64,000 nucleotides of DNA, from contig OZ020519.1 in NCBI GenBank assembly GCA_963971425.1, positions 4,232,028-4,296,027 on the forward strand, written 5' to 3'. The notes beneath the pieces are model-generated. The model was not told where the DNA came from, ran no database searches, and was given only the letters and a program-made list of their open reading frames with translations. The translations under genes and the position numbers were made by a program. Of the stretch, positions 1,460 to 27,093 are shown in pieces; the stretch's first letter is position 1; every line of letters starts with the position of its first letter. This stretch comes from Bryoerythrophyllum caledonicum (taxonomy: Eukaryota; Streptophyta; Bryopsida; Pottiales; Pottiaceae).

Positions 1460-4121
1460 ATGGCGTGTGAGAAGTGCAATGTGGCGGAGCAGCTAGACCA
1501 GGTGACGACGCAGGAGGCGGACGGCCTGGAGGACGAGGAGTCGCTGCGCCGCAATGCGCTCAAGGCCACGGGCGCCGAGCTCATCCAGGGCGACAGCGAG
1601 GGCGTCAACGGGATCCGCGTCTCTGGATGGTGCATCCGCACTCGCAAGGCGCCCATTCTCAAGATGGGGCCCCGGGAGACGTGAGCCATCATCTCCATTC
1701 CATTTCATTCTAATTTGCTCTTGAAAAGGTCTAGGGTTTTTGCCTTGCTGCGAGAACGAGAGTGATGTTCATGAATTGAGATTTTTTTGATGTAGCGGGG
1801 GGTTGATGTTGATTAATGGAGATGGCCAGTGCCATCGATTGGGTTTGGATAGGTTCTTCAATACGAATTGATATTGTTTGAGATGTCGTTGATATTATCG
1901 AGGGTTTCAGGGTTCAGGGCTGCTTTCTAGCATGGGATTGAGGATTGGTGTCGATCTGGGCGTGGATTTGAGACGGCTAGTGACATTGATTGGGTTCCTA
2001 AGAGTGGTGGATGTTGTGGGAGTTGGATTCATTCATTTTATAAGAGAGGAGACACGTACTGTGATTTTTGAAGAGTATGGAGAGTTGATACGATGTTTGT
2101 GGATGTTTAGTTTGTGTTTTTAAGCCGATTTAAGCTATGAAGGAGTGTGATGACGAGAGTGGTGGGGTGTAATGAGTGCAGGTGGGAGAAAGTGCTGGGC
2201 ACCACGCACTTGCCGCAGATGGTGTTCGGCGACAATTTTCTCGAGCTTGTGCACGAGGCTACCGGGTTGAAGATCCACTTCAACGCCCTGGATGCTCTGC
2301 GGGGCTGGCGCCAGGAGAGCCTCCCTCCGGTTCAGATTCCTGCCGCTGCTAAGTGGAAGAGTCGTACGTACGATTTGTTACACCTGCAAATTGATCAGCC
2401 TATTGTTCGCATGGGGCTCTGTTTAGCAGTGACCGAGTTTTGTTTTGGCTTTGTGAAGCCATCCAGGATGTTTTTGTGGTTACTAATCTGGCTTGATATT
2501 CAGAAGCTTGATCTTAGGTTATGAGGATGACCTGCTCTTTGGTTTTTGTGGTGCAGGAAGCCAGTTGAACAAGTGATATTGGACTATGACTACACTTTCA
2601 CAACGCCATACGCCGGAAGCGAGTGTGTGAAGAACATCGAGGTAGATTTGATTATTTCGTCGATGTCTTGTGCTCATTTTTGTTCTAGCGCTCTTGGCAG
2701 TATCCGATGGTATCTATTGTGTGTGTCTGTAATATGGTAGTCCGTACATTTTCCGGAAAGGCAGCTTAGGTGTGATCTGAGAGCTTTTCTATTTGTGGCT
2801 TTGTTAGACTGAACAGGACGTTGGGAGTGGCACATTGGAGTGGGTGGAAAGTCAAGAACTGATCGATATGGCCGCGTTACAACAAAGGGATCCAATTTTG
2901 TTTTACGACGAGGTAATCATGTTCGTCTTAAACGAAAAACAAGTGTCATATCCTAATAAATGTCACAGTTTAGTTTCTTTTTACATCCTATCTGCTGTGT
3001 ATCCAAGTGTGAGTTTAGAGTCAGATCACAAATAGATTCGAGCTTTGTGCAGATTCAACCGTGATATTACAAACAGAAAAAATCTTTGAGCAGTAACCGG
3101 AACCTGGTGGATACGTGCTACATTACCTGATGCTTTGTGCTGAGAACATGCCAATCGTGTCCCTCTCTTCTGTACATGGGTCGGTAACTGGATCGGTTAT
3201 CTTCGCCTGCTTATTTCGTGGAGGTTTATACAGGTGGTGTTGTATGAAGACGAGTTGGATGATAATGGGATCTCTCTTTTGACTGCCAAAGTGGTATGTT
3301 ATCGATCCTGTTGATGTTTGGTTCGTTGTTTTGTGTTTTCATCTGTCCAAATTTAGATTCCCTTACTGAATATGCGGGTACTTGTCACAGAGAGTAATGC
3401 CTAGCTGCTGGTTTCTCTTGCTGCGCTTTTGGGTAAGCCTCATCAGATTGTTTGAATGCTTTTTTGTGACCGTTGCATAATGATAACTTCTCCTAGTCTG
3501 TTCTGATTTTGCACAAATTATTTGTATCTCATTTCCTTGTGCACCTTTAGCAATTAAGATTCGACATGCTTGTCCACCTTTGCATAGCCATATGCCGTCT
3601 TAGTCATGAACACAATGCATGATAGTTGCCGCTAATTTCTGTGGGCAGATGCGGGTTGATGGAGCTCTCATGAGACTCAGAGACACGCGGATGTTTTGTC
3701 GAATCCAAAGTGGTTCTTCGGCATTTCCCGTGGTCATCAGGGAGCGCAATATCAAAGAGGACACTTTCGAGTCCTTGGTTTCGGTACGTGGCGATGTTTT
3801 TATTTGATCCTTAATTGTGCATGTGAAAAGGTTTTGCACCAATGACATTTTTTTGGTAATATTCTTGAATCAATTTCCATTCTGTGTTTGTTGGCCGACT
3901 CCCTAGTTTTGAATATGTTCCAAGTGCAGCGTTGACCTTGTTGTTTTTTGATTGTTCAATATGAGAAGAATTTGAATGATATGGAATACTTGTGGGTGTG
4001 TTTGCAGAAAGGTTATCCTCAAGATTCCGCCATGTACAATGACCCGACTGTATCAGGCGGGAGACTGAAACAGAAAGGCCACATTTGTGAGAAATTGACA
4101 ATGAAGTCGACCTTCAAATAG
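1460..4121 (+). CDS. TIP41L: TIP41-like protein (PP2A regulator), 8 exons
   Basis: Proposed join: 1460-1680, 2182-2367, 2557-2641, 2817-2912, 3234-3293, 3391-3432, 3649-3783, 4008-4121; 312 codons plus a TAG stop. Every intron is GT-AG and every junction keeps frame. The family binds TAP42/PP2A components and tunes phosphatase activity in TOR signalling (family knowledge). Recognisable TIP41 blocks are VSGWCIRTRKAPIL, WEKVLGTTHLPQMVFGD, KPVEQVILDYDYTFTTPY, LFYDEVVLYEDELDDNGIS, VMPSCWFLLLRFWMRVDG and DTRMFCRI. The length is near that of known plant homologues (about 290 residues). The start is the first ATG of exon 1 (MACEKCNVAEQ). The least certain junction is exon 2/3, where the donor at 2368 was chosen because it restores KSRTKPVEQV. 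Exons are more GC-rich than the introns and flanks. The gene looks intact. Confidence 0.93.
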
Positions 4122-7142: not shown

Positions 7143-8301
7143 TTGTAGCATTTGCTATCAAGATTATCGTGCCAAAACGATCCAAAAAATGGTTGTTTGT
7201 CTTTAATGATAAGGCCTTGCACGCGGCCTTGAAAAATCTATGAATGTAAAAGACCAGTTGTGCAAAAAGTGAACATCATTTACATGGAGGGTACATTTCA
7301 CCGTTGACTTTTTTTCACAAAAATCATTGTAGTTCGTTAATGCCCGAACCAATTGGAGATCGGGAAGATGCGTTTGATGGAGAAAAGCAAGGTGCATTGC
7401 CGCTACAACTAGTGCAAATCAATCCAACGGTTCAATCAATGGTGGCTCCCAAAAACCGGTCCCATCAACCAAAATGGTAGTCCCTTCATCGTTAAAGGGT
7501 TAAGCATCTACAATGCCACAGCACGTGGCACGCTGTGAGTGGCCAGTAGATGCCCACTGCCAACTGCCCAAGCGCAATAGCCCCCGCCAGTCTCCCTCCG
7601 CCACGTCACTCCCCCGCCGCCACCTTGGCATGCCCAGAACCCAAAAGACTTGCCACCCGCGACGGTTGGTTACGCGCTCGGTTGCGCTCCCGGTTCAGGG
7701 GGTTCCCTTCGGACGGCGCCCGGTTCCCCGCGCGGTTGCGGTAACGTGCCCCTTCTCTCTGCGCCTGATATGCAACCAGTGTCCCGCTGAAGCAGAGGCC
7801 TTTTTCTTGAGTTGGACAGGCAAGGTCGGCGCAGAATTTCAAGGTGGGGCCTTGACAGTGATGTAAGCATTCTCCCTCATTCGCTTTTCCCAATCTGAAG
7901 CTCTCATCGTTTGGGGTGTGTGAGAATTTGATGCAGTTTAGGGAATGTCGGATTGAGCCTGAGAGCGTTGTTTTCGTGTGGCAGTTTGTGTGGTGTTTTT
8001 TTTTTTTTTATGGTACCAGTGTAACTGCTGGAAACTCGGATTTTGTTTCATGGTCTTTCGTGTGGGATTTGCAGAGAGAGGTTTGAAATCCTCACATTGT
8101 CATCACATCAATTGGTTGACGCGATAGTTGAGAGTGATATGTGTATGTTGATGGGCTTTCATTAGGAGGTGTGATTTGTGGAGAAGCTTGAGCACGAATT
8201 GTGGTGTCATGTGTTTGTGTTTGCAGGCTTTCCTTCGGAGAAGAAGGAAGTGAGTAGTAGTAGTACTCGATTTCTGCTGCTGTGTGCGTCCATCCAGGGC
8301 C
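7143..8301. other. Upstream region of DA2-like gene
   Basis: Holds a TTAA-type end (AAAGGGTTAA, TTAA at 7500-7503) and then a GC-rich stretch (7510-7870) that is probably promoter or 5' untranslated sequence of the DA2-like gene. Reading frames here lack family motifs and I do not call a gene. An intron in the 5' untranslated region ending at the CAG at 8224-8226 is possible but unproven. Confidence 0.4.
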
Positions 8302-11140
8302 ATGGGAAACAAAATGACGCGCCGGTGCTCCACCGTGGATGAGCGCTACACTCGCCCCCAAGGCTTGTATCCTCAGCGCGACGTCGACCAGAAGAAACTG
8401 CGCCGCCTCATCATCGACTCCAAACTCGCCCCGTGCTTCCCTGGCGAAGACGAAACCAGCGCCGACTCTGAAGAATGCCCCATTTGCTTTCTGGTAAAAA
8501 TAAAAAATAAATATAAAAACTCTTCTATAGTTTAGTTCTTGGATGTGGCAAAAGCTGACATGAGGACGATGGTTGTTGTGGTTGGATTTTACAGTACTAT
8601 CCGAGTCTGAATCGGTCAAAATGCTGTTCGAAAAGCGTGTGCACAGGTGAAACCTCCCCTCCTTTTGGATGTGACCTTACGCCTCATAATCTGGGTGCAC
8701 GTCAAGTTGATGTGAGTGCAATAAATTTATGGTATTCTTCCTAACTTGGGGGTATATGGTGTGTGTCCTCAGAGTGTTTTCTGCAGATGAAGTCTCCACG
8801 TGCAGCTCGATCAACACCGTAAGCAACAAACTTGTCCATTTTATGTGCATCATGTCAAGTTACCATGTCAGATCATGCATTGTTCTGCTGCTCGTTTTCA
8901 TGTGCTGATGACCACGGCATTGTAGTTGCAGGTGCCCCTTCTGCAAGTCTCACAACTACGCTGTGGATTACCGAGGAAGCAAGACGCTGGAAGAGAAGGG
9001 CATCGAGGCTGCTGTAAGTTGGATCTGTTCCTCAATAACACCATTAATACTCAAAGTTTACACTTTTGGTATGAATACTGTTGTCTTCTCTAACATTACA
9101 CTGTGAATTGTGGGCCCGGGTGGCGATCTCCAATCTCTTTTTGAGTGTACAATTTGAAGTAGCAGATGACTGTAATTGTCTGATATGTGGTGATCCTGTT
9201 TTTATAGGAGGAGCAGAAGTTCATCGAAGCGAAGATTCGGATGCGGAAGCAGGAGCTTCTGGAGGACGAAGAGAGGGAGCAGCGGAAGGAGGAATTAGAG
9301 CGCGCCGCAACTCCTCCTCCTCCTCCTGCCCCCATCGCTACCGGTTTGGTAGAGCTGTCCGAATCCAGCTCCTCGCAACAGGTGAAGCTTCCGACTACAC
9401 CTGATATGACCCAAACTCTCTCCGATGTTCAAGCTCCGAGCTTGAACCGGGCCTGCGGGGCGCACTGTGGCGCCAGTTGCGCCAAGTGCCTGATGACGTT
9501 TCGCAAGAGACGAGTGTATGATGTGTTGGACGTGATCACTCCCCAGTCCGGGGAGCTGTTTCAAGCCAAACCTTTTCTCGGAAGGTGGCGCTCGACGTGG
9601 GGAAGCCACCACTCCCCCTTGTCCCGCAGCTTCCCCTTCCCGAGCCGGATGCCGGAATATCATTGCCGGCGTCATAGTACCAGGATCCTTGACTCTCCGT
9701 CACATTCTGATGGCCTAAAAGCTAGTAACCAGGAACTTGCGCAAGTAAGATCAGCCTAATAAAGATTTCACAGTATCTAATAATGTAACGTCATCCGAAG
9801 TTTCAATCAGTTACCTCTTTTTATTCTAATACTACTCTTTTCTCACTTTGAGCGTGGTGGTGTCTCAATTAGAATACTTATTCAGTCAATGGAAGAGCTT
9901 GGTGGTCTCTAAACTCTGGTTTGAGCCGCCTTTGAAAAGGAAGGAGAGGTCATGAATCTGACATCTCTTTCATGTCACCGATTAGCATGGTGGTGGTTAT
10001 TAAACGAGAAGTCGTGGATTGAGCAGGAGGATCAGTCGGTGACGTCGGGTTCGTGTGAGGAGGATCTGGAGTCATCGTGGGTCTGTGAGGAGTACGGGAG
10101 CGATGGAAGCCCGGCTCCCGCTCCGCAACCGCCGTTGCCTTGCAGCGAACGCGTCGTGGAACCGCCGCCGCCGCCTCCGCAGCAGCAGCAGCACCAACCC
10201 GGACTGGTGGCGCCTCGTCACAGGTGTGGATTTGAGAAATGACCAGTTAGCCCGAATTCAATCCGTCGGAGTTTTCCTCAGATTGCAGATCATGACCTGT
10301 TTTGTGCCTGCAGAGACGATGAATTCGACTTCGACTTGGAAGACATCATGGTCATGGAGGCGATCTGGCAATCCATCCAGGTATGCACACCCTGTCCCAT
10401 CTACTGTTTAGGAATTTAGAAGCCGCTACTGGTCCGTAGCCAAGTTTTGTGAGAGATATCCGCAGAGTGGTTAGGAGTTTGATCAGGCGGTGTTTGTTGC
10501 TCCTCGTATGATAAGATGCCAAGGCACTGTTTGCATTGATGGTTGTAGAATAGCGAAACCCACCTCGCATCGCCCAACTCTTAAGCGCCTAAAATGATCT
10601 GTTGGATTTCAGGACCAAGGGACGCGCCACGGGTACACCATGTCGGAGCCGCCGCGCCTGCCGCAGCCGGCGATGATGAACGAGAATGTTGGTGTTGCAG
10701 TTTCAGAATCTGCGGGATCAGAAGGTGGCAGCAGGGAGCCTCACCCCTTGAGGATGGCGCCAGGGGGGTTAGCAAGTGCGATTGCGGCGCTAGCGGAGCG
10801 GCGCGCCGTGAGAGGAGACGCCACACCGCCGAAGAAGGTGCTGCAGAACGTGAGCAGCAGCACAGGCTCGCCACCGGAGCCGGTTGATGTAGAAGTAGTG
10901 GAGAGTGATCAGCACGCGAGTTGCAGCTCAGAGGATGGCGCAAGCACCTCGGCGTCGACGTTGACGTGCGTGGCGCCCGTGAACTCACCGGTGGTGACCA
11001 TCAACCGGTGCGCGACGAACGCGGACGGAAAGGTAATGCTCCCCAAAAGCTTCGAGGAGCAGATGATGTTGGCCATGGCGCTGTCGCTTGCTGATGCCCA
11101 GTCTAGAGCGCGTGTGGAGGACATGAGTGTCTGTCTTTGA
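8302..11140 (+). CDS. DA2-like: DA2/GW2-like RING E3 ubiquitin ligase, 8 exons
   Basis: Proposed join: 8302-8493, 8595-8646, 8773-8818, 8932-9013, 9208-9744, 10012-10223, 10314-10380, 10613-11140; 571 codons. The start is [20 protein letters not shown], a block typical of DA2/GW2 proteins, followed by [16 protein letters not shown] and the [48 protein letters not shown] helical charged segment ([31 protein letters not shown]) follows. Near the C-terminus [18 protein letters not shown] and [13 protein letters not shown] match conserved DA2 patches, possibly ubiquitin-interacting helices. In flowering plants these ligases restrict organ and seed size (family knowledge). It is longer than the ~400-residue angiosperm proteins, mainly through a low-complexity middle (exons 5-6: proline, serine and glutamine runs). 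The exon 6 acceptor (10011) is the weakest junction; CAG or GAG sites a few codons downstream are also in frame. Confidence 0.9.
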
Positions 11141-11754: not shown

Positions 11755-11875
11755 GGTAAAATTTCACACACATACTTAGATTACACACACACAAGCTTAT
11801 TTAGATTGCATATAGACACAAGCATTCTTAGATTACACACACACATACACATACTTAGATCTCACACACATAGGA
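11755..11875. repeat. CA-rich microsatellite at LINE target site
   Basis: Repeated TTAGATTACACACACA-like units with intervening ACATACTTAGAT. The LINE lies immediately to the right, behind its 11-bp target duplication. The bases after the right-hand duplication (25865 on) are also AC-rich (AAACACACAACCC), consistent with insertion into one AC-rich tract. Confidence 0.8.
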
Positions 11876-11886
11876 AGCAACCAAAC
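11876..11886. repeat. Left target-site duplication of LINE
   Basis: AGCAACCAAAC, identical to 25854-25864. It lies directly beside the TTCTTCTTCTA-type 3' terminus of the minus-strand LINE. Confidence 0.75.
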
Positions 11887-12010
11887 TAGAAGAAGAACGC
11901 CGGTTCCCGAAGGGAACCGGCGTGAATAAAGTGTCTGTTCGTTCCATTGCTAAGACCATGCCCACCGGACAAGGAATTAGCAAACTGGAACTACTTCCCC
12001 CTTTCGAGGG
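11887..12010 (-). promoter_or_regulatory. LINE 3' tail: SINE-shared recognition sequence with hairpin
   Basis: Read on the minus strand, this contains CGAAAGGGGGAAGTAGTTC, TTGTCC-GGTGGGCATG, CGAACAGACACTTTATTCAC, then CGCCGGTTCCC-TTC-GGGAACCGGCG (a perfect 11-bp stem; plus positions 11898-11922) and GTTCTTCTTCTA. The same order of blocks forms the last ~125 bp of the SINEs at 38985-39373 and 50448-50801. In stringent LINEs the reverse transcriptase recognises such a tail RNA to start target-primed reverse transcription (family knowledge). Confidence 0.85.
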
Positions 12011-12130
12011 TAGACACTATGTAACGAGTAGCCAGAAACCAACCAACAACGACCAACCACGATCAAACTAAACAACAAAAAGCAAAACCAAACAGGCAGC
12101 CAATCAGGGAGAGACAGAGTGGCGAAGTTC

Positions 12131-15100
12131 CTAAGGGGGGTCTTGCCTATCAGGGAGGACTTGGTTGTTTTCGATTTTGCGTTTATGCAGTAAAATAGAC
12201 ATGGCATGTTGAATAGCGATGGTGTTGATATTTTTAAAGGTAGTTTTAATTGTATCAATGGGTATCTTGAAGGTATCTTCGAGAGTTTTCATAGATGGGA
12301 TAAAGGTGGTGGCACGAGCGCCGGATGTGATAACAATAAGGGGGTCTACCTTCCATCCAATGGCAATGATGTCGTCAATGAGGGGTTGATATTTGTCAAT
12401 TTTGTTTTGTATTGTTTCCGGAGAAAATCTATCGTTGCAATATGTGAATTCAATGAATTGAATGGTGTAGTCTTGGTTGATGTTCTCGGGTGGTGGGTCG
12501 TTGTATGGTAAACCTTTGACACAAAGAATGTCCGGTTTGAGCCTAGCGTTGCAATGACATCTTTGGGTCATACATGAGCATGGAAGTAGCCATGGGGGGA
12601 CCGTGTTTTCTTGTGGATTGCTATTAAAAGTGCCGGCGTTCATAAGTATGAAACATCTCGATTTATTGTAGGAGGTGATTAGTTTTCGGACTTCCCATAC
12701 CGCTTTGTTATGTCTATTAACAATTAGAGAGTGTATGTGGTGGTTTTGGCATTTGAGTAGCACATGAAGCCATGTGTCGGGGTCCGTGGAGGGGCATATG
12801 GGGCATGTTATGGATGGGAATCTTTCTATTCCAAAGAAGAGTTGTTTGCGAGCGTTTCCCATGTACTGACCCGTACGGAATTTGATGAGGCACGTTATTT
12901 GTGAGTCTGAGATGATGGGGTTTTTCCAAAAGTTTGTAGAGAGTTCATTGTCTATGTCGTTATTGTTAGTCCATTTTTCTATGTTAGGAATATTTTCTGA
13001 GATTGTGTCCAGGTTGTTGTAGAGGTCTTGTTTTTTGAGATATTTGCCCAGAAATCTAATTGGGCCTTTGTCGGGGGTATCTTCTTTGGAAGGCCAATCT
13101 TCTTTTTGAAAGTAGTATGGGGTGGCATGAGCATGTTCGTGAGGGTCTTTGGCATTTTTGTGTGTTTTTTCTCGGCCTTCTTTTGCAAGTTTGTCTGCTT
13201 GTTCGTTGCCATCAATGTTGGCATGGGCTCTGACTTTGTGAAGGGTTGTGATTTGTGTACGTTTTTGTAACATTTGTACCATTGATGTTAGTATGGTTTG
13301 GTCGGGGTGACTGTTGTGAAGGGTTGGGTGTGTTATTTGAGTGTTTAGTAGGTAGAGTGCATTTATACAATCGGTGAATATATGTGCAGGTTCATTTTTG
13401 TATTTTGTTGTGATGATTTGTAGTGTTTTGTGAATGGCCATGAGTTCTGCTCTGAGGATATTTTGTAGTCCATGGAGTCTTTTGGCTAGTTTAATTTCTT
13501 TGGTAGAATTATATATGCCATAGCCAGCTTTTTCTCTTCGCCAAGAGCCCGGGCTAATTTGTTCCGGTGGTTTAAAGGAGCCGTCGGTGTAATAACTGTA
13601 TGCGGGGTTAAATTTTGGTGTGGTATGAGCTGGGTAGTTTGGGAGAGGGGGAGGTATGACGGAGTAGTTTAATGTGTTGTTGTCATAGTTTAATTTTGAC
13701 CATTTTTTACTTTTGTTTACGGGGGTTTGTATGGGTGTTGGTGGGGCCGGTTTTGTGTATGGTCGTTGTATGTCTAGATTGTCTGTTATGGAGGTAAGTT
13801 CCGCAAGTTGTTCTAGGGAGCCGAGGTTTTGATTTTGATGATGGACGCATAGTATTTGTAATGTAGATGGCTCTATTCGGGGTTTTTTTAGCTCGGGTGG
13901 GATATTAGGTTCTTCGTATGGTATTGTGTCTGCTTCGAATAATGCAATGATGTGGGAATCTGGGAATGGGTTTGAATGTTGGTTGTTGTTTTGGTACCAA
14001 TTGTTGTTCGGTGTGACGATGATTGTTTTTGTGTTGTTTGGATCGTGTTTGGCGGCAAGTCTAGCCCAATGTATGGCTTGTTCTATGTCTTTCTCGTTGT
14101 GGGGGTGAGCTATTCCATTTCCGATCCATTTGTGTTCAAAGGCCTTGCCTAGGGATCCAAATATTTTGTCTCTTTCGTACGGTGAGTAGAATTTATTTAG
14201 TTTGGTAGGACATGTGATTGGGGAGGAAAAGTATGAGTGTTCGATGTTAAAGGATGATATTAGTGAATCTAAAATGGGGGTGGGTATTGTGTATTGCGCA
14301 TTTTTGAGGGGGTCAGTTTTTGGTATTCGATATTTATATCTTTGGTAAAGCCATATTAGTTCGGTTTCAAAGGGTTGGGTTGTTGGTTCAATGTTTGTAG
14401 GGGATTGTAATTTTGTATGATATTGGTTCCATAACCATTGGAGCCGGGTAATGGGTATGGTGTGTAAATGTCGGCCGTTTTCTTCGTATAGATGTGCTTG
14501 ATTGTTATCTATTTGAATTGTGTTTGAGGATGTAAGGATATCATTTTCGGGGTTGCATTCTGTTGTGTAGATGTTTAAAAGTGGGATAATTATGGGTGGC
14601 GTTATGGACCTTGAGTCTGAGGATTGTTCTTGTGGATGGTGGGCAAGGATGATATCTGAGTATATTTTGTTTTGGATCTTTTGGTAGTATTGTTTTAATT
14701 TTTCAGTGTTATGTGTGGAGGTATTGGTGTCATGCCGTGGAAAAAGGTCTCTTTGGGGGAGCCATTTATTGTATGTATTATCATTGTGTTGCCATTGGCA
14801 TAGGTATTTTGTGTAGGTATTTTGTATGTTATTTGTGTCTGTGTGTTGGATATGTTTATGGTTTATGATATTATTAATGGGATATGTGGTAGGGTTTTTG
14901 GGGATGTATGTTGGGGGGCGGGGGTGGTATGTATGTGGAGGGTTAGGGGGATTGGTTGGTGTGGGAATATTTCTTGGGATGATGTTATTGTTGAGGGTGA
15001 TGAATGGATCTTTAAGTGTATGAGAGTATGGATGTGTGTTGCAAGGAGTATGACATATAGTGGGGCATGTTATGTGGCAAAATAGTTGTTTAGCAACACT

Positions 15101-18100
15101 TAGGGCACTCTTTATTAGTTTAGATGGGGTGAAGTGGTAGGTTTTGAAGTCCTCATTGTTCATGATGTGTGTACCGTTAGGTAAGGTAATTTGGTTTAGT
15201 TCAAAAATATTTTTTGAGAGGAGTTTTTGTAGAAGCTTTTGGGAGAGTTGGGCATTGAGTGTGTTATGATTTAATGTTTCTTGGCGCCATAGTATTTCTA
15301 GTGTTGTAGGATTAGTGAGGAAGTTCGGGAGCGTACTTTTAAGGTGGGCTTTAGCTATATGTTTTAATAAGAAGAATGTTCGTGTTATTGGTGATCTTAT
15401 GCAGTCACTTTTTTTAATTCTCGGTATGTTTTCAGCGCCACCATATTGGGCAAGGACATAGTGAGTTAATCCATTATATATTTTCCCAAGTCTTCCTTTA
15501 TCGTTTAAAGCATTTTGCAGTTGTTCGCCTATACATCGGAGGTATGCGTTTTTTAGGGAGAAAGCTTCAAGTCCAAATAGGTTATGTGGTAGTTGGGTTA
15601 TTGCATTTGACATACATTTTGGTAATCCACATATGGTTTTTTGTATGGCTATTATTTTTTTATCAAGTTTTTTGATAGCTGGCATAGAGTATGGTACACC
15701 GTAGAAACTGTATGCCACACCTGGACGTAGTACGGTATCAACCATTTTTATTTTTTGTTTCATGGTGGTTGGGCATGTTGTTAGTTCTTTGCATTGTTTG
15801 ATGAGTTTTGTGGTTGTAGCGTGGATTTGGATTTTCCATTTTAGTGAAGGGACAAGATTTATACCTAGGTATATATATGGCTCATTTTGATGTAGTGTGG
15901 GGATTGGTTGATTGCGGTAATTAATGTTAGAGGCTTGTATTAGGGCTTTGAAAGTGGTAGGGTTTAATTTGGATTTGTTTGGGCATCCGGTAGCGGCACA
16001 TTTTGGAACACCTACGTCCATACCAGCCCATTTACAATATCTATCAATTTTATTGAGTTGTATTTGTACATGTTTGATTTTGTTAGTTATGACGGCGAGG
16101 TCATCTGCGTATGCGGCAGAGTTTATTGTGACTTGTGATGTGCCAAACGTGTATCCGTTGTTGCCTCGTTCTAGCCATCTAAGTAGTGGTTCTAAGAATA
16201 TAATGAATAAATATGGGCTAAGGGTGTCTCCTTGTATGGTTCCTCTTTCTATAGGTATGGGTTTTGTTTTCCCAAAGTGTTCACCAATATATTGAGTGGA
16301 TGACTGGGAGTAGATGTTTCCTACAAGTGTGATGGCATCTTTTGGGTAGCCAAGGTCTATCATTATTGCTAGAAGTCGGGCATGGTCTATTGAACCAAAG
16401 GCATTTTTAAAATCAACATATAATATGTATATATCTTGGTTAGTGAATTTTGCGTCTTCTAGTGCAGCTATTATAGTTTGTATTTGTCGAGCGGTGCTTC
16501 TCTCTGCTCTAAATCCTTCTTGGCTATCATGTAGGATTTTGAATTTTTCGCCGTATGAGGATAGTATAAAGGTGAGTGTACTAGTGAAGAATTTGTATAT
16601 TGTGTTAGCTAGTGCAATTGGTCTATGGTTGGGTAGTATAGATGGGTCACCTTTTTTGTATAGTAATATTGTTGCACTTGATTTCCATGAGGTCGGTATT
16701 TGTTTTTGTTTATAACAGTGAGAGAAAAATAGGAATAATAATTTATGAAATTTTGGAGGCATGTTTTTGAGTATTGAGTTTGGTATGCGGTCTGGGCCTG
16801 GGGCTTTGTTGTTACCAAGATTTTGAAGGCATGTGTCGTATGTGGCTCTATTAAGGTATTGATGTAGTGGGATTTCTGGTTCACCTCTTTTCTCCAGGGT
16901 ATATCCATCAAGGTCATGCCATGGATATTGGCGTACTGCACATGTACATTTATTATGATGTTGTAGTTGGTAGTTGCATGTTGGTACTGTTGGTCTATTG
17001 GTTTTTGTTTGTTGGTTGAATATTTCATTCGCAATGTCTTCTGGGCTAGTTAAAATATTGTTAAATTGATCTGTGATACAATCTAGTGGTGGGGATTCTA
17101 GATTCTTAAAGACTCTTCTATTGATTTTTTTAGGACTTATTTCATATATTTGTCTATATTTTGAGATGGCTTTTTTAACGTTATCTTTGGTGTGTTTTGA
17201 AGTTATTTTTCTGGCTTGTATGTTGGCGTTTTTTGCAATTAATGCGATATCTTTTATCCATGTATCATGGGGCATATCCGGGGGCGGTGGGGTGGGAATT
17301 TGGCTATTTTGTAGAGTTAGTAGTTCATTACATATGGGGTGGTTGCGCCATTGGGAATTATTTTTTACAAGTCTTATAGTTTTTCGTATAACATGGTATA
17401 TAGTAAGATGTTGTTTCCAAGTTTTAGAGAGTTTTCGTGGTAGATATCCTCCTTGTTGAGATATTCTGTTTGTTAATTGGGGTATTGGGTGTGCTCTACA
17501 AGTTTGTTCTAGTGTGTTGGAGATTTCTTTGGTGAGTGTGTCTAGGGTTACACATGCTTCTTGCCATTGTACTCGTGATAGTTGGTTGTTATTCTCAAGA
17601 GTATTTATGAGGGAGTCTATTAGTGTGGATTGTTCTTCAAAGAATTTTGTATTGAATTTTTCTAAGTTATCTTTTGGAATGGGGTTGAGTATGCGTATAG
17701 TGTCATTGTTTAGTGTTGTGGGAGTTCTATTAATTAAAGTGTTATTTGGTATGTGTAGATGTATAGGTGAGTGGTCCGAGTTTAGAATAATATCTTTGTT
17801 TGTTGTAGAAGTGTATTGTGTATTATTGTTGGCATTTATATAGAATCCGTCTATTAGACTCCAATCACTATAATTATAGCCCCCTTGTCTAGAGAATTGT
17901 GTGTCGGTTTTGATGTAATTGAAGTTTAGGTTTTCGGTGAATTGGCGCCATTGGTGGTCTATGATTTGAGGAGGGGTGTTATGATTTCCATTGTGGCGCC
18001 CAATTAATGCTATGTCTCTATTGAAATCACCACATAGTACATATGTGTGGTTTGGGTTGTTATTTATTTGAGTTGTGATAGTGTTTTGTATGTCATTGAT

Positions 18101-20660
18101 AAATCTAGTATCTTCGGGGTGAGATGGCATATACATATGAAGGACTAGCCATGGTTGTAGTGGATAGTTAGTGATTTTGATTATTTGCAGGTAAGGAGAT
18201 ATGTGCACAGGGGTAGGGATTTTCTTGATGTTGCCCGGGAAAGCATATTTTTTATGTATTAGTGTAAGGAGACCTCCACGGCCCGGTGTGTATGGTCTCC
18301 TTTGTTGGATACATCTTGTGAGTGCATGTGTATTGTTGAAAATGAGTTTATAGTCTTGGAATATATTTTGTATGTATTTTGTGGATTTTGTGGCAGATAG
18401 TTTTGTTTCTTGTATAACTATAATGGCTGGCGGTGTGTTCATATATGTAACCAGAGTTTGTAAGCTAGGAAGGGCGGTGTTTAGAGAAGAGGCATTCCAT
18501 GTGATTATATATGTATTTTCATGATTTGGGTTATTGTTTTGGTTTTGTGGATGTAGGTAAGGGGGTGGGGGGGGTGGGTGGGTGTATTCTGGTATTTGGT
18601 CGAGACATTTTAGTGATTCAATAATTAGATTGTTGGGAAGGTATGGAAATTTTTGTTTTATAGTATCTTGTGATGGTGGTGTACGATGATTGTGTATGAA
18701 ATCATAAAGTTCTTTATGTATTGATGTTTTATGGTTTATAATGTTTTGGTTATTTTCAATGAATGATATATAAGGGTGTGGGGTGTTAATGTGTCTTTCG
18801 GGAGAGTTATGTAGGTTAGCAAGGGAGTTTAGTAGTGCATTAGTCCATTGAGTTATGTTTGGATTTTGTTGATTTAATATGAGGTTACATTCGTCTATGT
18901 GTGGGTGGATTGTAGTTACTATAGCGTATAGGATATGTGGTGAGGGATGTTCGTTTTGTTGTTGTATATGTTGGATAATGTGTGGGTGTGTGTTGGCGTA
19001 TGATAGGTGTAGTGTATGTGTGGAGTTTAGTAAAGGTGCAAATGATTGGGCAATATGTCTATATTCCGGTTGTAATTTTATTGTGTTTGGTATGAAATAT
19101 ATTTTGGCATTCTTTTTTTGTTGTATTGGGTGTCTTTTTAGTACGTTTGGCATAGGTCCTGGGTTGGTTTCTATGTCTCCTCCAAGTATTAGTAGTAGTT
19201 TATAGTGTGGTGGTTTGTTATTATGTTTAATGGTTGTATGTTTTTTTGTTTGTCTAATATATTGTTTTGTTTTGTTTTTGATTTTTCCCTTGTATTGAAG
19301 AATGTGAGTATTATGTTTTCTTTCTTTTAAGTGGGTTTCCCTTGTATTGATTTTCTTAGGTTTATTTTTTTGTTTTGGTTTATTGTTTTGTATGTTATTT
19401 TTGTTAATTAGTTTGGTGTTTGTTTTTGTACTTTGGTTTGTGTTATTCTTGATATGTATATATTGACTTGTATTTTTGCATCTTTTTTCATATGTGGTGG
19501 GTGTTGTGTTGGTGTGTGTGTGCGTATTGTAGGTAGTATTTATATTTGTGTATATATATGTATTTATATGTATTTTTTGATAGTTTTTATTTGTATGTGT
19601 TTTGGTAATTGTTTTAGTATATGTATTTGGAAATAGTCTTTGTATGTGTTTTGTGGATTTTGTGGCCGAGACTTTTGTTTCTTGTATAACTATGAGTGCC
19701 GGTGGTGTGTTAGTGTGGGTAACTATGTTTTGTAGGCTTGGGAGTGCGGTGTTAAGGGATGAAGCGTTCCCTGTTATTTTGTTTGTGTTGTTGTTGTTTG
19801 TATGTGGGTTGTGGTTTTGTGATGAAATGTGATGTGTCGTTGGGGGTGGGTGTGTATATTCTGGGAAGGGATTTAGGCATTTTAGTGATCCGTTTATCTT
19901 TGTGTCTAGAAGGTAGGGAAATTTTTGTTTTATCATGTCATTTGGTGGGGGTGTGTTTTGGTTATGTATAAAGTCATATATCTTTTTGTTTATTGATGTG
20001 TTGTGGTTTATGGTGTTTAGGTTAGCTTCCATGAATGTTGTGTAAGGGTGTGGAGTGTTAATGTTTCTTTCGGGTGGGTTTTGTAAGTTTGATAGGGTTT
20101 GTAATAGTGTGTTAGTCCATGTGGTTGTGTTTGGGTTTTGTAATTCTATCAGTCGGTTACTTTTGTCAGGTTTGGGGTGAATGGTAATTACTATGGCGTA
20201 TAGTATATGTGTTGATGGGTGCGTATTTTTTTGTTGTGTATACTGGGCAACGTTTGGGTGTGTTGAGTTATGTACTTGGTGTGGGGCGTGTGTGGTATTG
20301 AGGAGGGGTGCAATTGTTCTAGTAATATGTTTGTATTCTGGTTGTAGTTTTATGGTGTTTGGTATAAAGTAGTTTTTGGCGTTTATCTTATGTATTCTGG
20401 GGTGTCTTTTTAGTACTTTGGGCATGGGTCCTAGGTTGTTTTCTATGTCTTTGCTAAGTATTAGTAAGCCTTTATAGTGTAAGGGTTTTATATGTTGTTT
20501 TACTATTTTTGGTTTATATGTGTATTTTGGATAATCTTTTGTTTTTATGTTTTTGGTTTTGGTGTTTTTGTTCATGTTTGTTTGTAAGTTTTTGTTTATG
20601 GGTTTTTTTGGTGATTTGTTTATGTTAGTGATTTTAAGTGTTATATTTGGGTGTGTGTTA

Positions 20661-20704
<44 letters not shown>

Positions 20705-21490
20705 TTGGTTTTTTTGGACTTGTTTATATGTGTTTTTATGATATCTCTTTTTATTTGTCTTTGAGGTTGTATTTGTGTGGATTTTGTTGTTATTATTATT
20801 ATTTTTTAGTATGTGGGTGTGTGGGTATTTGTGTGTGTATGTATGTATTATGTGTGTGTTTGAGTTTATGTGTGTGTATTTGGTTGTGTAGATGTCTTTG
20901 TATGGGTGGATGTTTATGTACTTTTTGGACTTGTTGTGTATTTTTATGTAGATGTGTGGGTATGTGATTCTTTGTATGTTTGTTTTGATGTGTTTGAGTG
21001 TGTGTATGTATGTGAGTTTATATGTGGTTATATTTGTTGGTGTATGTGAGTGTTTGTTTATGGGTGGGGCGTGTGATTGTATGTGTATGCGTTTCCGTGT
21101 TTTTATATGTGTGTATGTGGGTGTGTCTACGTATGTGTGTGTATCTTTTTGTTTATTTGTATTTGTGTGGGTGTGTGTATGTGTGGTTGTTTGTATGTAT
21201 GTATGTATGTATCTTTGTATATCTATAAGTGTGTGTATGAATATATGTATGTGTGTATATGTGTATACATGTGTGTATGTGTGTATGTATATGTGTGTAT
21301 ATGTATTTATGTGTGTTTTAGTATGTGTCTTGGGCCATGTGTGTAGTATACAATGATTGTATTGAGTATAGTGAGTAGTACAGTATTGGTATAACGTATT
21401 TTTGTACTTGTATAGCTCTAGTACTTGATGTAGAGTATTGTAGCTAATGGTATGGTAAATATGTATTACCGTGTGGTCTATTGTCTTCAC
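12131..21490 (-). CDS. LINE ORF2 polyprotein: 2A, AP endonuclease, RT, RNase H, Cys/His and PD-E tail
   Basis: 3119-codon frame. Numbering from the GTG at 21490: residues 1-305 are His/Thr/Tyr/Asn-rich and come from AC and AAT microsatellite DNA. The first ATG after that GTG is residue 306, so the true start is unclear. A degenerate 2A (DIENNLGP) ends at 355 and an intact 2A (GGDIETNPGP) at 779. AP endonuclease: W998, QET with E1028, GDFN with D1155, SDH with D1239-H1240. Reverse transcriptase: YVDF with D1693, QGDTLSPYLF, YADD at 1794-1797. RNase H: TDGS with D2636, E2682, D2707, and HANIDGNEQAD. A CPIC motif starts at C2896 with a following H and C. The tail has PD at 2986-2987 and E3014 (IEFTYC). 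Catalytic residues of all three enzymes look present. The 2A at 779 would separate an N-terminal product from the enzymes during translation. Confidence 0.9.
18347..19213 (-). repeat. ORF2 internal duplication, downstream (functional-looking) copy
   Basis: Residues 760-1048 of ORF2, continuous with the full AP endonuclease domain. It retains the canonical 2A and the endonuclease N-terminal ITWNASSLNT. Between the two copies lie ~135 codons of Thr/Asn/Lys-rich low-complexity sequence that resembles the sequence upstream of the first copy, so the duplicated unit probably included that low-complexity leader (1272-bp period). Confidence 0.88.
19154..19183 (-). other. Intact 2A ribosome-skipping motif
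   Basis: Encodes GGDIETNPGP (residues 770-779) preceded by KLLLIL, matching the D-[VI]-E-x-N-P-G-P consensus. Such motifs separate two proteins at the G-P bond during translation and are known in trypanosome L1Tc and some animal LINEs (family knowledge). Confidence 0.93.
19619..20485 (-). repeat. ORF2 internal duplication, upstream (decayed) copy
   Basis: Residues 336-624 of ORF2, homologous to residues 760-1048. Both read HYK-LLIL-(2A)-MP-VLKRHP, then YFIPNTIKLQPEY, FPYL and NASSLNTALPSLQ, ending near KSTKHIQRLF. Spacing is exactly 424 codons at both ends (2A proline 355 to 779; G574 to W998), so there is no net indel between them. This copy has NLGP instead of NPGP and G574 instead of the endonuclease tryptophan, and stops before the rest of the endonuclease. 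It appears to be the degenerating duplicate. Confidence 0.9.
20426..20455 (-). other. Degenerate 2A motif
   Basis: Encodes SKDIENNLGP (residues 346-355). The essential NPGP proline is leucine, so skipping is expected to be lost (inference from 2A mutational knowledge). Confidence 0.88.
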
Positions 21491-24400
21491 ATGTTTGGCG
21501 GTGTGTCTTCAATTTGTCTTGGTTTTACTCTTCCTTTGATGGCTTTCATGGCTTCGATGGTGGCTTGCATGGAGTTTTGAATGCTCTCCATTTGTGCAAC
21601 AAGTTCTTCGTGGAGCTTATCCGTGTATTCTCTATTCTCAATCCTCATCTTCTTGTTGTTCTCTTCCAATGCATCTTCTAGGTCCTTCTTCGTGACGTTG
21701 GTGTTGGTGGAGGTGGGGGTGTCTTGTATCTTGAATGTCGCAACGGTGTTGACCATGGCGGTGTTGATGTCATTGAACCCAAAACCCTCCACTTGTTCTT
21801 GGGTTGGAGGATCTACTCCTTCTAAACTCCTTCGGTGTGGGGCAAAGTCCACGTGATTCTCACCAATTTTGATTGTCTTCTTCACAAACTTCCTATACAC
21901 GATAGGGTTAGAACATTCCACATTTGCACTCCCATTATGCCTTTCACCATTCTCTTTGTGGAACCATATGTTCTTGGTGTTGTCAATTCCTAGAACTTTG
22001 TGGATAGCATTAGTGGTATCAACAATACTCATGAGAATAGGCAATGGGGATAAGGTGAGAGTGAGGGCATCCTTTTTTGCCTTTGCTTCGGGTGTCATAC
22101 GGCCCCCGGTGAAGGTTTTCTTCGCTTGAAGGACTTCGTGTTGGGTTGTAACGTGTTGGAGTTGGATCTTCAAGGCTTGTTGCGGGGTGGTGGTGGAGAC
22201 GAAGGCGTAGGGATCACTTGTAACCTTTTGCACACCGGTGATTTCGAATTCTTGACCTCGGTTGAAACTATTGTGGAGGATGTCCACAAAAAGTTGGTGT
22301 GCCGGGATACCTGCCAAGGAGTCACTTCTAATGCGCACGGAGAGGTTAGTAGAGTTAGCCGTATGATGGTATGTTTTGCATACCTTACCAATGATCTTGT
22401 GATTATCTAACACAAGTATGAAAGGCCTAAGGCCTTTGAGCAACATGAGACCATCCGTGTCGGGGTTGAGTAGGTGTAGTTTAAACATACCCGTCCATAC
22501 TCCCTTTTGACCCCCTCGTTTTACGCTATGACATTGAATGTAGATTGGGTCAATTAAGTTCGTGCCTAGTTTGATGTCTATTTGTTCTAGTCTTCTAGTT
22601 ATTATTTTGTATACATCATCATGCAACATAAGGTTGGTGGGGGGTTCGAAAAAGATCGCAATATGAAAGTCCAAGGCCAAACCTGTGGCCTCGTTGATCT
22701 TGATGTCTTGTGGGATTTGAGTGATGTTGTAGTGTTGCTCTTGTGCTCCTCTCCTCTTGCATGGGTATAGGAGTTGGGGGATGCGCGGGAATGCCTCACT
22801 AGCCTCCATTGCTTCTTCCGCTTCGTTGGCTTTGAAACCTCTGGCCATCTTGTCTTCTGTGGTTTCATCGCTCGTAGGGGCTTCCACTCCTTCTTCTACC
22901 GCAATGCGCTCCATGACTTCAAATCCTAGCCATAGATTTAGGTCTGAAATTAGTGGTAGTGGTTTAGTGGACTTACCTTTGTCTTCTTGGGTGTTCTTAC
23001 TCTTCTTGCTGCTGCCGGTCTCTTCCATATTTTTCCTCGAACCTTTCTCTTTTGGGGCAGCTACTTTATGCAACGTCACATCGTCCACATCCATTGCCTC
23101 ATCAAATATGATGCCTCTTCTGCTACTCATGATTAGATTATGCTTTGGATTTAAAAGGATTTGAATGAGAGTGAAGGGACTTACCTGGAGTCGTGAAGGA
23201 GGGTCGATGTGTACTTGATGTGACTTGATGTGATCTACAGCACATGCATGTTGCTCGTCTTTGGCGGCCTTGTATGATGGCTTGAGCTGTCTGCACCAAT
23301 CGTGAGTTATAAAGTGGGTTGCTTGGGTTGGGGTGAGACTTACCTTTCTCCCTACGAGGGCCTCCCTTTCGCTTGCTGTCTTCAGACTCTCTTCTCGCTT
23401 CGAGGATCTTGTTCTTCTCACTGGGGAGCTCTCGCCTTTCTCCTTCTTACCCCCTGCGAGGGCTTCCTCCTTGTCTTCTGTTCGCGAGCTCGCGTTTCTC
23501 TCCCGGGGCCCTGCTGCTCTTCTCGCTGTTTTCCTTGCTCTTCTTCTCTCTGTGATCTTCGCGTCCTCTGCCTTTGCTCTTCTTGTGAGGGTCCTTCTTT
23601 CTCTTGTTGTCGTCACGTCCTCCGCCTTCGCTCTTCTTGGGAGGGTCCTTCCTACACTTGCTGCCGTCAGTCTGTGGCTTCTCCTTAGTGGCCTTGTTCT
23701 CCGTATCAATGTTCTTGTGTCGTCCTCCTTCTCTGTCCCTACGAGGGCCTCCCTTTCACCTGCCGCCTTGAAATATTCGTCTTGCTTCAGCAGCCCTTCT
23801 TTGCGCGTTGGAGTTTCCTTCGCGTCTTCCGATCCTTGACCTGCAACTTTTGTTAGTGTTTCTGACCTGTTGTTTGCCTGGTTGCGTCTCGGGTTGTTGT
23901 CCTGCTGTCCTTCTCGCGGGCGTGAATTCTTGTGTGTCGATATTGTGTGGTCGCTGCTCCTGCGTCTTCTTGCAGTTTCTTGTATTTCTGTACTTCGGCG
24001 GAATTGTTGTTTGTGCCCCTCGTCTGAGGGTGTCCAATCTCCGGTTGCCTTTGTACTTGTGTCTCTTGCTCCTGTAGATTGCTGGTTAGTAACGGTGTTA
24101 GATGTATACTTACCTTTGTATTCTTGGTTTCTTCGGTTGAGTATGTAGTCCTCTTGTGTTTCTTGTATTGGTTGATGTAAATCTTCTGTTTTCGTGCGAT
24201 GTCGATGATGAGGGGCGGTGGAGCAGTTGTCCTGTTCGCCTGTCGGGGGGGCAGTTCTCTGTGAGTTGTTGGAGGGTGCCTTCGGTTCGATTGTTGGTGT
24301 CGTGTGTCGTGTGTCGTGTGTCGTTGGTGTCGTGTGTCGAGGGGGCCTGTCTTGTTGTGTTGAGTAGGGTCTCTGTCTTCGTGCTTGAATTTTAGGTCTT

Positions 24401-24801
24401 GGGCTGGTGTAGCTCGGAAGTTGGAGTTGATGGTTCCGGGTGTGGAGTCGCTGGGTTTGGGTTACCTGGAGGAGGTTGAGGTTTTGATCTTGGGCTGTGC
24501 GCTCTTGTCTTCTGGAGGAGGTCACTTCGTGGTCTTGTGCGGCTGGGCCTCGAAGGGGGTTACTGTTGTGGTCGCGTCTGCTGTAGTCGAGTCTGTAGAA
24601 GTGGGTTTGCGTTTGTGTGGTACTCCTGGTTTTCTGGTAGTTGTCGCCTTGTCTTCCCTTCACCTGTGCATGTCTGTAGCGGCAGTTGTATGCTTCTTTG
24701 GTGCTAGGTCTGAGGCTTCGGTGTTGTTGATTCTTCAATGTCTGGTGTCTTCTATGTCGTAGAGTCTTGTTTAGTTTTCTTGAGTGCTCTGTTAGGGTCA
24801 C
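21487..24801 (-). CDS. LINE ORF1 protein (gag-like, coiled coil)
   Basis: Open frame of 1104 codons. The first ~557 codons are Arg/Thr/Ser/Glu-rich with repeated modules such as EREALVG, RRTR and RRAKAEDV; the reliable domain may begin at the ATG at 23130 (MSSRRGIIFDEAMDVDD). After it come a charged linker, a folded-looking region (about residues 700-1000, without a motif I can name), and a C-terminal coiled coil (DLEDALEENNKKMRIENREYTDKLHEEL). By position it should be the nucleic-acid-binding partner of the retrotransposition particle (inference). The stop overlaps the ORF2 frame: ATG TGA at 21492-21487, with ORF2 in the -1 frame. Several strong splice-donor-like AG/GTAAGT sites lie in the sense strand (near 22976, 23184, 23340, 24113, 25190), so the N-terminal half could be partly spliced leader. 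Confidence 0.75.
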   Translation of the reverse strand: MTLTEHSRKLNKTLRHRRHQTLKNQQHRSLRPSTKEAYNCRYRHAQVKGRQGDNYQKTRSTTQTQTHFYRLDYSRRDHNSNPLRGPAAQDHEVTSSRRQERTAQDQNLNLLQVTQTQRLHTRNHQLQLPSYTSPRPKIQARRQRPYSTQQDRPPRHTTPTTHDTRHTTPTIEPKAPSNNSQRTAPPTGEQDNCSTAPHHRHRTKTEDLHQPIQETQEDYILNRRNQEYKGKYTSNTVTNQQSTGARDTSTKATGDWTPSDEGHKQQFRRSTEIQETARRRRSSDHTISTHKNSRPREGQQDNNPRRNQANNRSETLTKVAGQGSEDAKETPTRKEGLLKQDEYFKAAGEREALVGTEKEDDTRTLIRRTRPLRRSHRLTAASVGRTLPRRAKAEDVTTTRERRTLTRRAKAEDAKITERRRARKTARRAAGPRERNASSRTEDKEEALAGGKKEKGESSPVRRTRSSKREESLKTASEREALVGRKVSLTPTQATHFITHDWCRQLKPSYKAAKDEQHACAVDHIKSHQVHIDPPSRLQVSPFTLIQILLNPKHNLIMSSRRGIIFDEAMDVDDVTLHKVAAPKEKGSRKNMEETGSSKKSKNTQEDKGKSTKPLPLISDLNLWLGFEVMERIAVEEGVEAPTSDETTEDKMARGFKANEAEEAMEASEAFPRIPQLLYPCKRRGAQEQHYNITQIPQDIKINEATGLALDFHIAIFFEPPTNLMLHDDVYKIITRRLEQIDIKLGTNLIDPIYIQCHSVKRGGQKGVWTGMFKLHLLNPDTDGLMLLKGLRPFILVLDNHKIIGKVCKTYHHTANSTNLSVRIRSDSLAGIPAHQLFVDILHNSFNRGQEFEITGVQKVTSDPYAFVSTTTPQQALKIQLQHVTTQHEVLQAKKTFTGGRMTPEAKAKKDALTLTLSPLPILMSIVDTTNAIHKVLGIDNTKNIWFHKENGERHNGSANVECSNPIVYRKFVKKTIKIGENHVDFAPHRRSLEGVDPPTQEQVEGFGFNDINTAMVNTVATFKIQDTPTSTNTNVTKKDLEDALEENNKKMRIENREYTDKLHEELVAQMESIQNSMQATIEAMKAIKGRVKPRQIEDTPPNM

Positions 24802-25853
24802 TCCTCCTATATTAAATCCGTCGCGCCTGTTAAGGGTGTCGATATATTCGTAAGTAATAATAATTACTTGTGTCTTCCTTTGGTCTTCTGCAGCAGCCCT
24901 TGTGGTTCTGACTTGAGTTTCGGCCCTTGTCTTGTGCTTGTTTTGATGTTGTGTACTCTTCCTTGTGCAGGTGCGGTTGGATCTGTGGCATGTGAACCAA
25001 GAACTACCACAGACAATATGGAGGGAACAATAGAGATTGGGGAGAGGGTGGTAGAATGTGACCTGTAATCTGGTGTAGCTTTGTATGGACTTCGTGCTAC
25101 CACTTCATACTTGTAAATCTTGAAATACTGCAAAGTTAATACTAAGTGGGGTAGGGTTTGAGCAATATTGGGCTAAGTGAGAGCTTACCTGGGTGTGTGT
25201 GCTTTGTATGCCTGGTGTCTTTGACTTGTCTTGTTTGAGTTCCTTTGCTTGGTGCAGTCCGGTCTTCTTCTTCTGTTGTGTAGTTCTGAAGGCACAATCT
25301 AAGCAAGTATTGCAGTCTCTTGTAATGATAAGAATTTCTATAGATGCTGAAATGTAAAAGCAAATGAATGAGAAGAGTTTAGGTATAGCCTGTAGAGGTG
25401 GCTGATCGTTGCTGGCCTGCGGTGTAGTGGTGTTCTTGACAGCAATCTTGAATTGTTGAGTGTGTGGATCTTGCGAGAGGAGAGTTAATGGGGGTTTTCT
25501 GCAGATCTAAGCTTCCTAGTCTAGATCCGGGTGGCTAGAGTTTGTGAGTGATGTAGTAAGTAAGATCTATGCACCAACACTAAGCAACTGCTCGCTATCA
25601 GGATGCACTTTCTACATAGATCTCGACTATACTCCCTCGTTCAGCAGCTCACACCCTCCAGATCTCGACGTTTGAGCCTATTCCAACAACTATCTGCATC
25701 TTGGGAAAACCCCCTCTCCTAGATCTAAGACATACAAGGGCTCCCACCGAGTTCAGCCACTTCTCGATGCTTGCAGTCTTCTCCCTAGGAGCTAAGTCCC
25801 ACCTCTCCCTCACCACAAATCTCGGAGCTCCTTACTCAGCCATGTTAATTTCT

Positions 25854-25864
25854 AGCAACCAAAC
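25854..25864. repeat. Right target-site duplication of LINE
   Basis: AGCAACCAAAC, identical to 11876-11886; it marks the 5' end of the minus-strand LINE at 25853. Confidence 0.75.
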
Positions 25865-27093
25865 CAAAAACAATCGCAATGCATCAAACACACAACCCTA
25901 TCACAATTAAATTCCAATCCAAATGAGAGTAAGATTGCACCAAAAAACGCTTAAATATCCAACCTCAATTTTCTACCCTCAAAAAACACCAAATCTCAGA
26001 ATTCCGAAAAGATGCGCTTCTCTTCTTAGGTTCTATTTCTCTGGTTTTATTGTTTATTAAATTGGAAGATTTCATCTTAAACATTTGGTTGATCGTGAGC
26101 AAAGAGTGTTCATTTGCTCTAAATTTCTTCTTCAAGCGTGTGTAAGAACCTTATGGTTTGTATTAGAGGAGAGTGAGTTGCCAAAGGAGGATCTCTTATG
26201 AGTTTGGCACACCTCTAATGTGTGCAAGTCGAGAGGATGTGGACTTGAGAGTGAGGTTTAATGTTGTTCGTGTCTATCTGAATGGGATCAAAAAATGTGT
26301 TTTGTTGCAAGTACATAGGTGAAACCCAACAAAACCAAAATGCAACAACTTCCACCCTCCACATCTCTGCAACAAATGTCACTTTAACATTGTATAATTG
26401 GGAAATTCTAGAACTTTTGAAGGTATACACCCCGCTACAACAAAAAATTCTCAAAGAAAATATGAAGGGGATGCATATAGAAAACTTCAAATTTAAAGCA
26501 AACAACACTTTGAAGAACCAAGGTATATCAAAGTAGAGGAAGGAAAAACAGATATTCTTATATATATAGGAAAGCAAAAAACAACCAAAGTACACAAAAT
26601 TGAAGAGGGAATAAAAGAGTGATTCTTAGATTTATAATAGTCTCACAATATCAAATTGCACACCTAAATGTGACGAATCAAATATCTAATCAAACAGAAG
26701 CAAATCCGAACTTTCACTTTTTAAATTCTTCCGGATGTTTTGCCTTGTGTGTCTCAAATCCCCTCAGAAGTTCATCTCAACGGTTAGAATGTGCAGGCGG
26801 TCCCTCGATTGCCACAAATATGTTCCCATCTCTACTTTCACAACATTTGGTGATCTCAACTCATGACAGGCTCAGGAAGCGATTGGTGACAACGGGCAAA
26901 TAGTACAAGCCATATGTTTGTACCTGGAATCATGTAGGAAACTTAAGATTTTGTGCGTGCAATCTTGCAAGAGCCTTCAAATGGTGTGAGTAAGGAAGGA
27001 CTTGAATGCTCTACCAATGGTTTGTGGTCCCCCTGTAGGACCTAATGGAAAAAATATCAAGTCCGCTTAGGAAGCAATTCAGCTCGACTAGAG
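25865..27093. other. AT-rich region, no gene seen
   Basis: Short ORFs on both strands, including an opposing pair at 26215-26595 and 26282-26536, lack recognisable motifs. I see no RNA gene, inverted repeat or promoter that I can defend. Confidence 0.4.

Follow-up and report, generated by a model that had tools for sequence, protein, structure and literature searches.

Structure of the element

The window, as the whole 64,000-nucleotide stretch of Bryoerythrophyllum caledonicum DNA is called here, harbors a LINE on its minus strand. The conserved part of the element comprises 13,956 bp (11888..25843), with the 5′ end at 25843 and the 3′ end at 11888, and its termini are common to other copies. 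The initial annotation had proposed an apparently intact plant LINE of about 14 kb, and the element proved to be full-length and recently inserted, with other copies ending at the same places. The 11-bp direct repeat said to bracket the unit, AGCAACCAAAC, is indeed found exactly twice in the window (11876-11886 and 25854-25864), where 0.06 occurrences are expected, and two were reached in none of 100 shuffles. The repeats form the target-site duplication, which reads GTTTGGTTGCT in element orientation at the 3′ side (11876..11886) and likewise takes up 11 bp at the 5′ side (25854..25864). Comparison with other copies refined the borders of the unit: the conserved part is limited to 11888-25843, and the 10 nt between the 5′ duplication and the conserved start (25844..25853, minus strand) are a copy-specific leader, at which the 27 other copies read differ.

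The element is characterized as a LINE by its LINE-type reverse transcriptase (RT), the lack of a long terminal repeat (LTR), and target-site duplications of differing sequence. An LTR element was rejected, as direct repeats of at least 80 nt in 11800-25900 are confined to a low-complexity stretch (20867-21344) and an internal duplication. The assignment to the Dualen type is made by anatomy, and the element is new as a variant; it is probably a young Dualen/RandI-type LINE, full-length and with a single additional domain acquired by capture. Its novel parts are this PCIF1-like domain and the leaders.

Both reading frames are unbroken, as had been claimed, and lie on the minus strand. ORF1 (21487..24801) has 1104 codons and ORF2 (12131..21490) has 3119 codons, each listed from a GTG (table 11); these GTG starts are mechanical. 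The ORF1 frame is open from 25104, and its first ATG lies at 23130, from where 547 codons follow; no Pfam domain over the cut-off was found in ORF1. The ORF1 stop overlaps the ORF2 frame at ATGTGA, and the first ATG of ORF2 is codon 306, at 20575. Base composition as the source of the long frames was rejected: in a first-order Markov simulation, 0 of 500 sequences were open in each of five stretches, and the other two sense frames of the five open stretches contain 14-161 stops.

Some features of the 5′ region were noted in passing. The ORF1 frame runs through 658 open codons (25104-23131, minus strand) free of any ATG before it reaches its first one. Within 25843-25105 (minus strand), the element start ATGGCTGAGTAAGG bears a donor-like GTAAGG, read by eye, and an intron-like stretch, CCAG/GTAAGC ... 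TATTAACTTTGCAG, was likewise seen by eye near 25190-25131, so that splicing of the element RNA is possible.

Domains of ORF2

The ORF2 frame takes on the order 2A peptide, AP endonuclease, RT, PCIF1-like domain, RNase H, CCHC knuckle, and restriction-like endonuclease (RLE) motifs, all on the minus strand. The core motif of 2A/StopGo peptides is given as (D/G/C/N)(V/I)ExNPGP in the available text of PMC12846837, and DIETNPGP at 19154..19177 (codons 772-779) conforms to it. A degenerate version, DIENNLGP, is found at 20426..20449 (codons 348-355) in a duplicated block. This internal duplication of about 920 bp is present in the young subfamily; its upstream copy (19639..20560) covers the 2A and the N-terminal part of the AP endonuclease, and its downstream copy (18367..19285) is about 73% identical to it (72% over 300 nt within the window). 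In the 10 kb retrieved for each of the copies L032, L033, and L035 there is a single block, which has a canonical 2A, and a canonical 2A is also present in the fragments L030 and L046.

The AP endonuclease (Exo_endo_phos, 17987..18505, codons 996-1168) was recognized over the cut-off with E 2.6e-6, and with E 1.5e-7 when the domain was scanned alone; Exo_endo_phos_2 stayed below the cut-off (1.4e-5). The domain lies N-terminal to the RT, as in Dualen/RandI elements. The RT (RVT_1, 15857..16648, codons 1615-1878, E 5.6e-28) is accompanied by PGPD at 16801 and YADD at 16111. Its best match in the PDB is R2 (E 6.7e-31), and no L1 chain appears among the 11 sequences at E ≤ 1, for which reason an ordinary plant L1 is not favored. 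The RNase H (13172..13600, PF00075), another feature of the Dualen/RandI group, exceeded the cut-off with E 1.8e-14 when the piece was scanned alone and was not listed in the scan of the whole protein (E ≤ 0.1). It is followed by a CCHC knuckle with the pattern C-x2-C-x9-H-x4-C (12749..12805, codons 2896-2914), whose x9 spacing is one residue longer than the x7-8 of RLE LINEs.

The PCIF1-like domain (14003..14407, codons 2362-2496) is located between the RT and the RNase H. It was identified by the Pfam family PF12237 with E 5.1e-10 in the whole protein; the window's domain scores 43.5 bits (cut-off 31.1), and the same profile matches 10 of 10 family members at E ≤ 1 (best 8.5e-15). The only PDB profile matches at E ≤ 1 are the PCIF1 chains 6irx (E 0.0014) and 6irv (E 0.21), which we take to be zebrafish and human PCIF1, respectively. 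The domain shares the SPxxC and FGSxG blocks with PCIF1 (CAPAM, the cap m6Am methyltransferase) and differs from it in sitting inside a LINE frame and in lacking NPPF, the catalytic motif of PCIF1. NPPF was found in none of the 10 members; opposite the NPPF of 6irv, the moss domain aligns AHPH (at 14110), a motif kept in eight members and replaced by APPH in L016 and ADPH in L015. The most likely role of the PCIF1-like domain is to bind capped RNA rather than to methylate it.

Copies, termini, and age

The genome searched was the 437-Mb assembly of 894 contigs. With an 801-bp DNA probe from the 3′ part of the element, the 40 matches scored out of 3939 candidates, the window's own included, were all 99-100% identical, which bears out the recent activity implied by the initial annotation. 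Among the best 96 of 5655 candidates for the RT, 16 matched at 99-100% and 80 at 94-97% identity; frames of at least 3000 codons surround the RT in 5 of the 16 (3118-3125 codons, the window included) and in 16 of the 80. Of 20 copies fetched, 12 align along almost the entire 9.5 kb examined with 99.4-99.7% identity, and the rest are truncated, mosaic, or older. Six of the 12 near-full copies are free of in-frame stops in the ORF2 codons compared, frameshifts not being counted. Over the 9.5 kb, 13 copies (window included) differ by 221 minority changes, and eight changes create stops.

The termini of the other copies match those of the window. At the 3′ end lies the hairpin CGCCGGTTCC-CTTCG-GGAACCGGCG with a cUUCGg loop (11898..11922, minus strand), and the terminal hairpin key is present within four mismatches in 19 of 20 three-prime fetches, L032 being the exception. 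It is followed by a (TTC)n tail (11888..11897, minus strand) that varies in length between copies: short in 18 of the 19 copies and very long in L036. The 131-nt RNA 3′ end folds at −59.8 kcal/mol, compared to a shuffle mean of −37.0 (z −6.0), and none of 200 shuffles folds as low. The 5′ start was located within two mismatches at 28 genome places, the window included, and at none for the reversed control.

At other insertions the duplications are 10-14 bp long and differ from copy to copy. Both ends are in hand for 12 copies, namely ten (window included) and two of 18 further ones tried. By script, duplications of 11-14 bp were detected in 9 of the 12, that of L19 being AT-rich and weaker, and no convincing one was detected in L20, L34, and L67. 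Additionally, L55 pairs with L18 through a 10-bp duplication, TATACTTGAG, read by eye; their ends are about 27.5 kb apart, as if this copy held an insertion. Copies with a duplication thus number ten in total. The shared ends combined with differing duplications establish the LINE unit as real and young.

Further relatives are present in the genome. Among the 150 candidates scored out of 2614 for PF12237, 33 share a 3087-codon frame and the same score, which suggests a related, very uniform family. This sister family (e.g., G000 C8:15561129) is perhaps a still more uniform burst. L023 and L034 are insertions of the family into related LINE copies, with flanks that match the element at 84-87%. 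In L032, L033, and L035, dS relative to the window is 0.02-0.09 over codons 1981-3119 and 0.4-1.1 over codons 764-1980. The nearly identical 3′ half and the strongly diverged 5′ half of these copies indicate recombination between LINE families, with a break at about codon 1980 (about window position 15550).

Selection on ORF2

In comparison with three copies of 91-92% DNA identity, dN/dS is 0.06-0.22 over codons 764-2560 and 2641-3119. Five further copies yielded 0.08-0.17 over those parts of codons 1541-2560 and 2641-3119 that they cover, and three distant copies 0.12-0.17 where computable. The linker at codons 2561-2640 is looser (0.27-0.58). The values of 0.06-0.22 show that the ORF2 domains are maintained by selection, including the PCIF1-like domain, which with 0.17-0.22 is under purifying selection itself. 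In young copies, the changes in codons 32-1540 fit neutrality; the comparison with older copies began at codon 764.

The putative second endonuclease and the origin of the leaders

LINE RLEs are described, in the available text of PMC5678591, as a CCHC with x7-8 spacing followed by KPD, E, and KX2KY, with the catalytic lysine in a second helix. Downstream of the CCHC in the moss element (12281..12658, minus strand) follow RH, KPD (codon 2985), E3014, and KIDKY (codon 3030), the last of which fits KX2KY exactly. KPD, E, and KX2KY stand in the same sequence as in that description; elsewhere in ORF2, KX2KY occurs twice more and KPD once more. These motifs suggest a restriction-like endonuclease. 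The element could instead be an APE-type LINE, such as an I-group or plant-L1-like one, both of which are reported with RNase H in the accessible part of PMC4640811, and its C terminus would then consist of the CCHC and unrelated sequence, with no second endonuclease. This reading fits the finding that the region has neither a profile match among solved structures at E ≤ 10, R2 entries among them, nor a Pfam family over the cut-off, as well as the poor confidence of two structure predictions (mean pLDDT 36.0 and 36.7). In both of these low-confidence models, KIDKY falls in a helix, whereas KPD and E lie within or at strands, and the second has the order helix-strand-strand-strand-helix-strand. 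The motif order, a dN/dS of 0.06-0.13 across the region, and the preference of the RT for R2 over any L1 chain speak against a lone AP endonuclease, which is considered unlikely. Far less probable still is a composite or assembly artefact, in which two elements or a nested insertion would have been taken for one. Some other copies are indeed nested or mosaic, but among the 12 copies with a match along almost the entire 9.5 kb fetched, nine have their 5′ start at the full-length position, and the script-detected duplications flank 9 of the 12 with both ends in hand, window included; such independent copies count against an artefact of assembly.

The leaders can likewise be read in two ways. In the ten copies with a duplication, a private leader of 10-53 nt, different in each, separates the duplication from the conserved start. 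Across the 28 five-prime ends, G occupies position −1 in 20, A position −2 in 18, and G position −9 in 19; relative to flank composition, and with copies taken as independent, P is about 1e-8, 1e-4, and 1e-7, respectively. A reverse-transcribed cap that leaves a G is a habit known from L1, and the −1 G of the leaders may have arisen in this way, the remainder probably being untemplated or patchwork synthesis. Cap copying does not account for the G at −9 in leaders that are otherwise copy-specific. Copying of the leaders from the element was rejected (longest shared word unremarkable against 200 shuffles in 10 of 10 leaders), as was copying from nearby DNA (shared word with the own flanks unremarkable in seven of eight, with L24 standing out). 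Host RNA captured by cap-snatching, trans-splicing, or 5′ transduction, either ahead of reverse transcription or in its course, would explain why leaders differ between copies and why they end in AG in 14 and in G in 20 of the 28 copies, resembling exon ends, and the element does carry a cap-enzyme-like domain. Against this, each of the three leaders probed (L17, L19, and L21; 27-39 nt, ≤2 mismatches) was found at its own copy and nowhere else in the 437-Mb assembly, and capture is judged improbable, slightly more so than a lone AP endonuclease. An element RNA with one fixed start at ATGGCTGAG would indicate leaders made during insertion, and leaders in the RNA would indicate capture.

Proposed insertion cycle

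The features of the element can be arranged into a tentative cycle. ORF1 would yield an RNA-binding-like protein, and ORF2 would be translated through the ATGTGA overlap by reinitiation or frameshift. The 2A peptide, judged by its motif, may free the N-terminal low-complexity part from an enzyme of about 2340 residues. The AP endonuclease would nick one strand, and the enzyme, as the termini suggest, would recognize the 3′ hairpin and prime on the (UUC)n tail. The RT would then copy to the RNA 5′ end and the RNase H would strip the RNA. A putative cut of the second strand by the restriction-like endonuclease would lead to the duplications of 10-14 bp seen in the copies. At the RNA 5′ end, the RT may add the complement of the cap (G at −1) followed by untemplated or patchwork bases, and joining of the upper strand after these extra bases would produce the private leaders.

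A more speculative role, held with low confidence, can be assigned to the PCIF1-like domain: as a captured cap-binding module, it would let the ORF2 protein hold its own RNA by the capped 5′ end, so that the RT reaches the cap, copies it as C, and extends or jumps. If true, this would explain the many full-length 14-kb copies, the G at −1, and the private leaders, and the element would be a LINE that performs a cap-recognition step of its own. In any case the domain ties LINE biology to the mRNA cap. A search of titles and abstract starts, mostly of open papers, found no PCIF1-like domain in a LINE, though one may be in print.

Relation to known LINEs

Dualen/RandI elements are defined by an AP endonuclease and a restriction-like endonuclease in one ORF2 and additionally carry RNase H, according to the accessible parts of PMC4640811 and PMC3636483. 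The moss LINE shares the AP endonuclease and the RNase H with them, has a putative RLE recognized by motif, and differs from the group descriptions in the PCIF1-like domain between RT and RNase H, the 2A, the length of 14 kb, and the moss host. The hosts named in the literature, as far as its text was available, are green algae and cryptophytes, and no paper title on Dualen/RandI in a moss was returned by the literature search. With R2-type RLE LINEs the element shares the nearest solved RT, PGPD, and the CCHC followed by KPD/E/KX2KY; in contrast to them it also has an AP endonuclease, ORF1, and RNase H and inserts at scattered sites. 2A/StopGo sequences were reportedly described in APE-type LINEs by Odon et al. 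in 2013, and the core DIETNPGP is shared with these. In the moss LINE the 2A lies about 770 codons into the frame and is duplicated with one degenerate copy. One scan each of viral_contigs and genome_contigs returned no relatives outside the host genome, which means little because these are viral and prokaryote collections.

Dualen has been invoked in support of an origin of AP-endonuclease LINEs through replacement of the restriction-like enzyme (PMC4640811, in the part available). A recently active family with many copies in a land plant that seemingly keeps both enzymes offers a living system for the role of each. Completion of the 5′ end of an insertion is described as poorly understood in the accessible text of PMC6895275, and this step is directly recorded in the leaders. 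The apparent combination of two nucleases with a cap-enzyme-like domain could show how LINEs gain parts and finish insertions.

Neighboring and plastid sequences

Two frames were noted elsewhere in the window. The one at 8254-10000 (plus strand; short frame 8254-8532) resembles what is presumably a plant DA2-like RING protein, and the one at 35226-36255 (minus strand) resembles a family-2 glycosyltransferase, with PF10111 below the cut-off. The first of these agrees with the moss host, and so does the plastid gene psaB: a 441-residue piece of it, taken from a 115-kb contig, has its best matches in 7ksq, 6l35, and 8htu, which are Physcomitrella structures, and differs from 7ksq at 4 residues. 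In the assembly, contigs G000 C894 and C821 carry two psaA/psaB sets with different scores, which represent the plastid contig and either a nuclear plastid copy or the second plastid of a contaminant.
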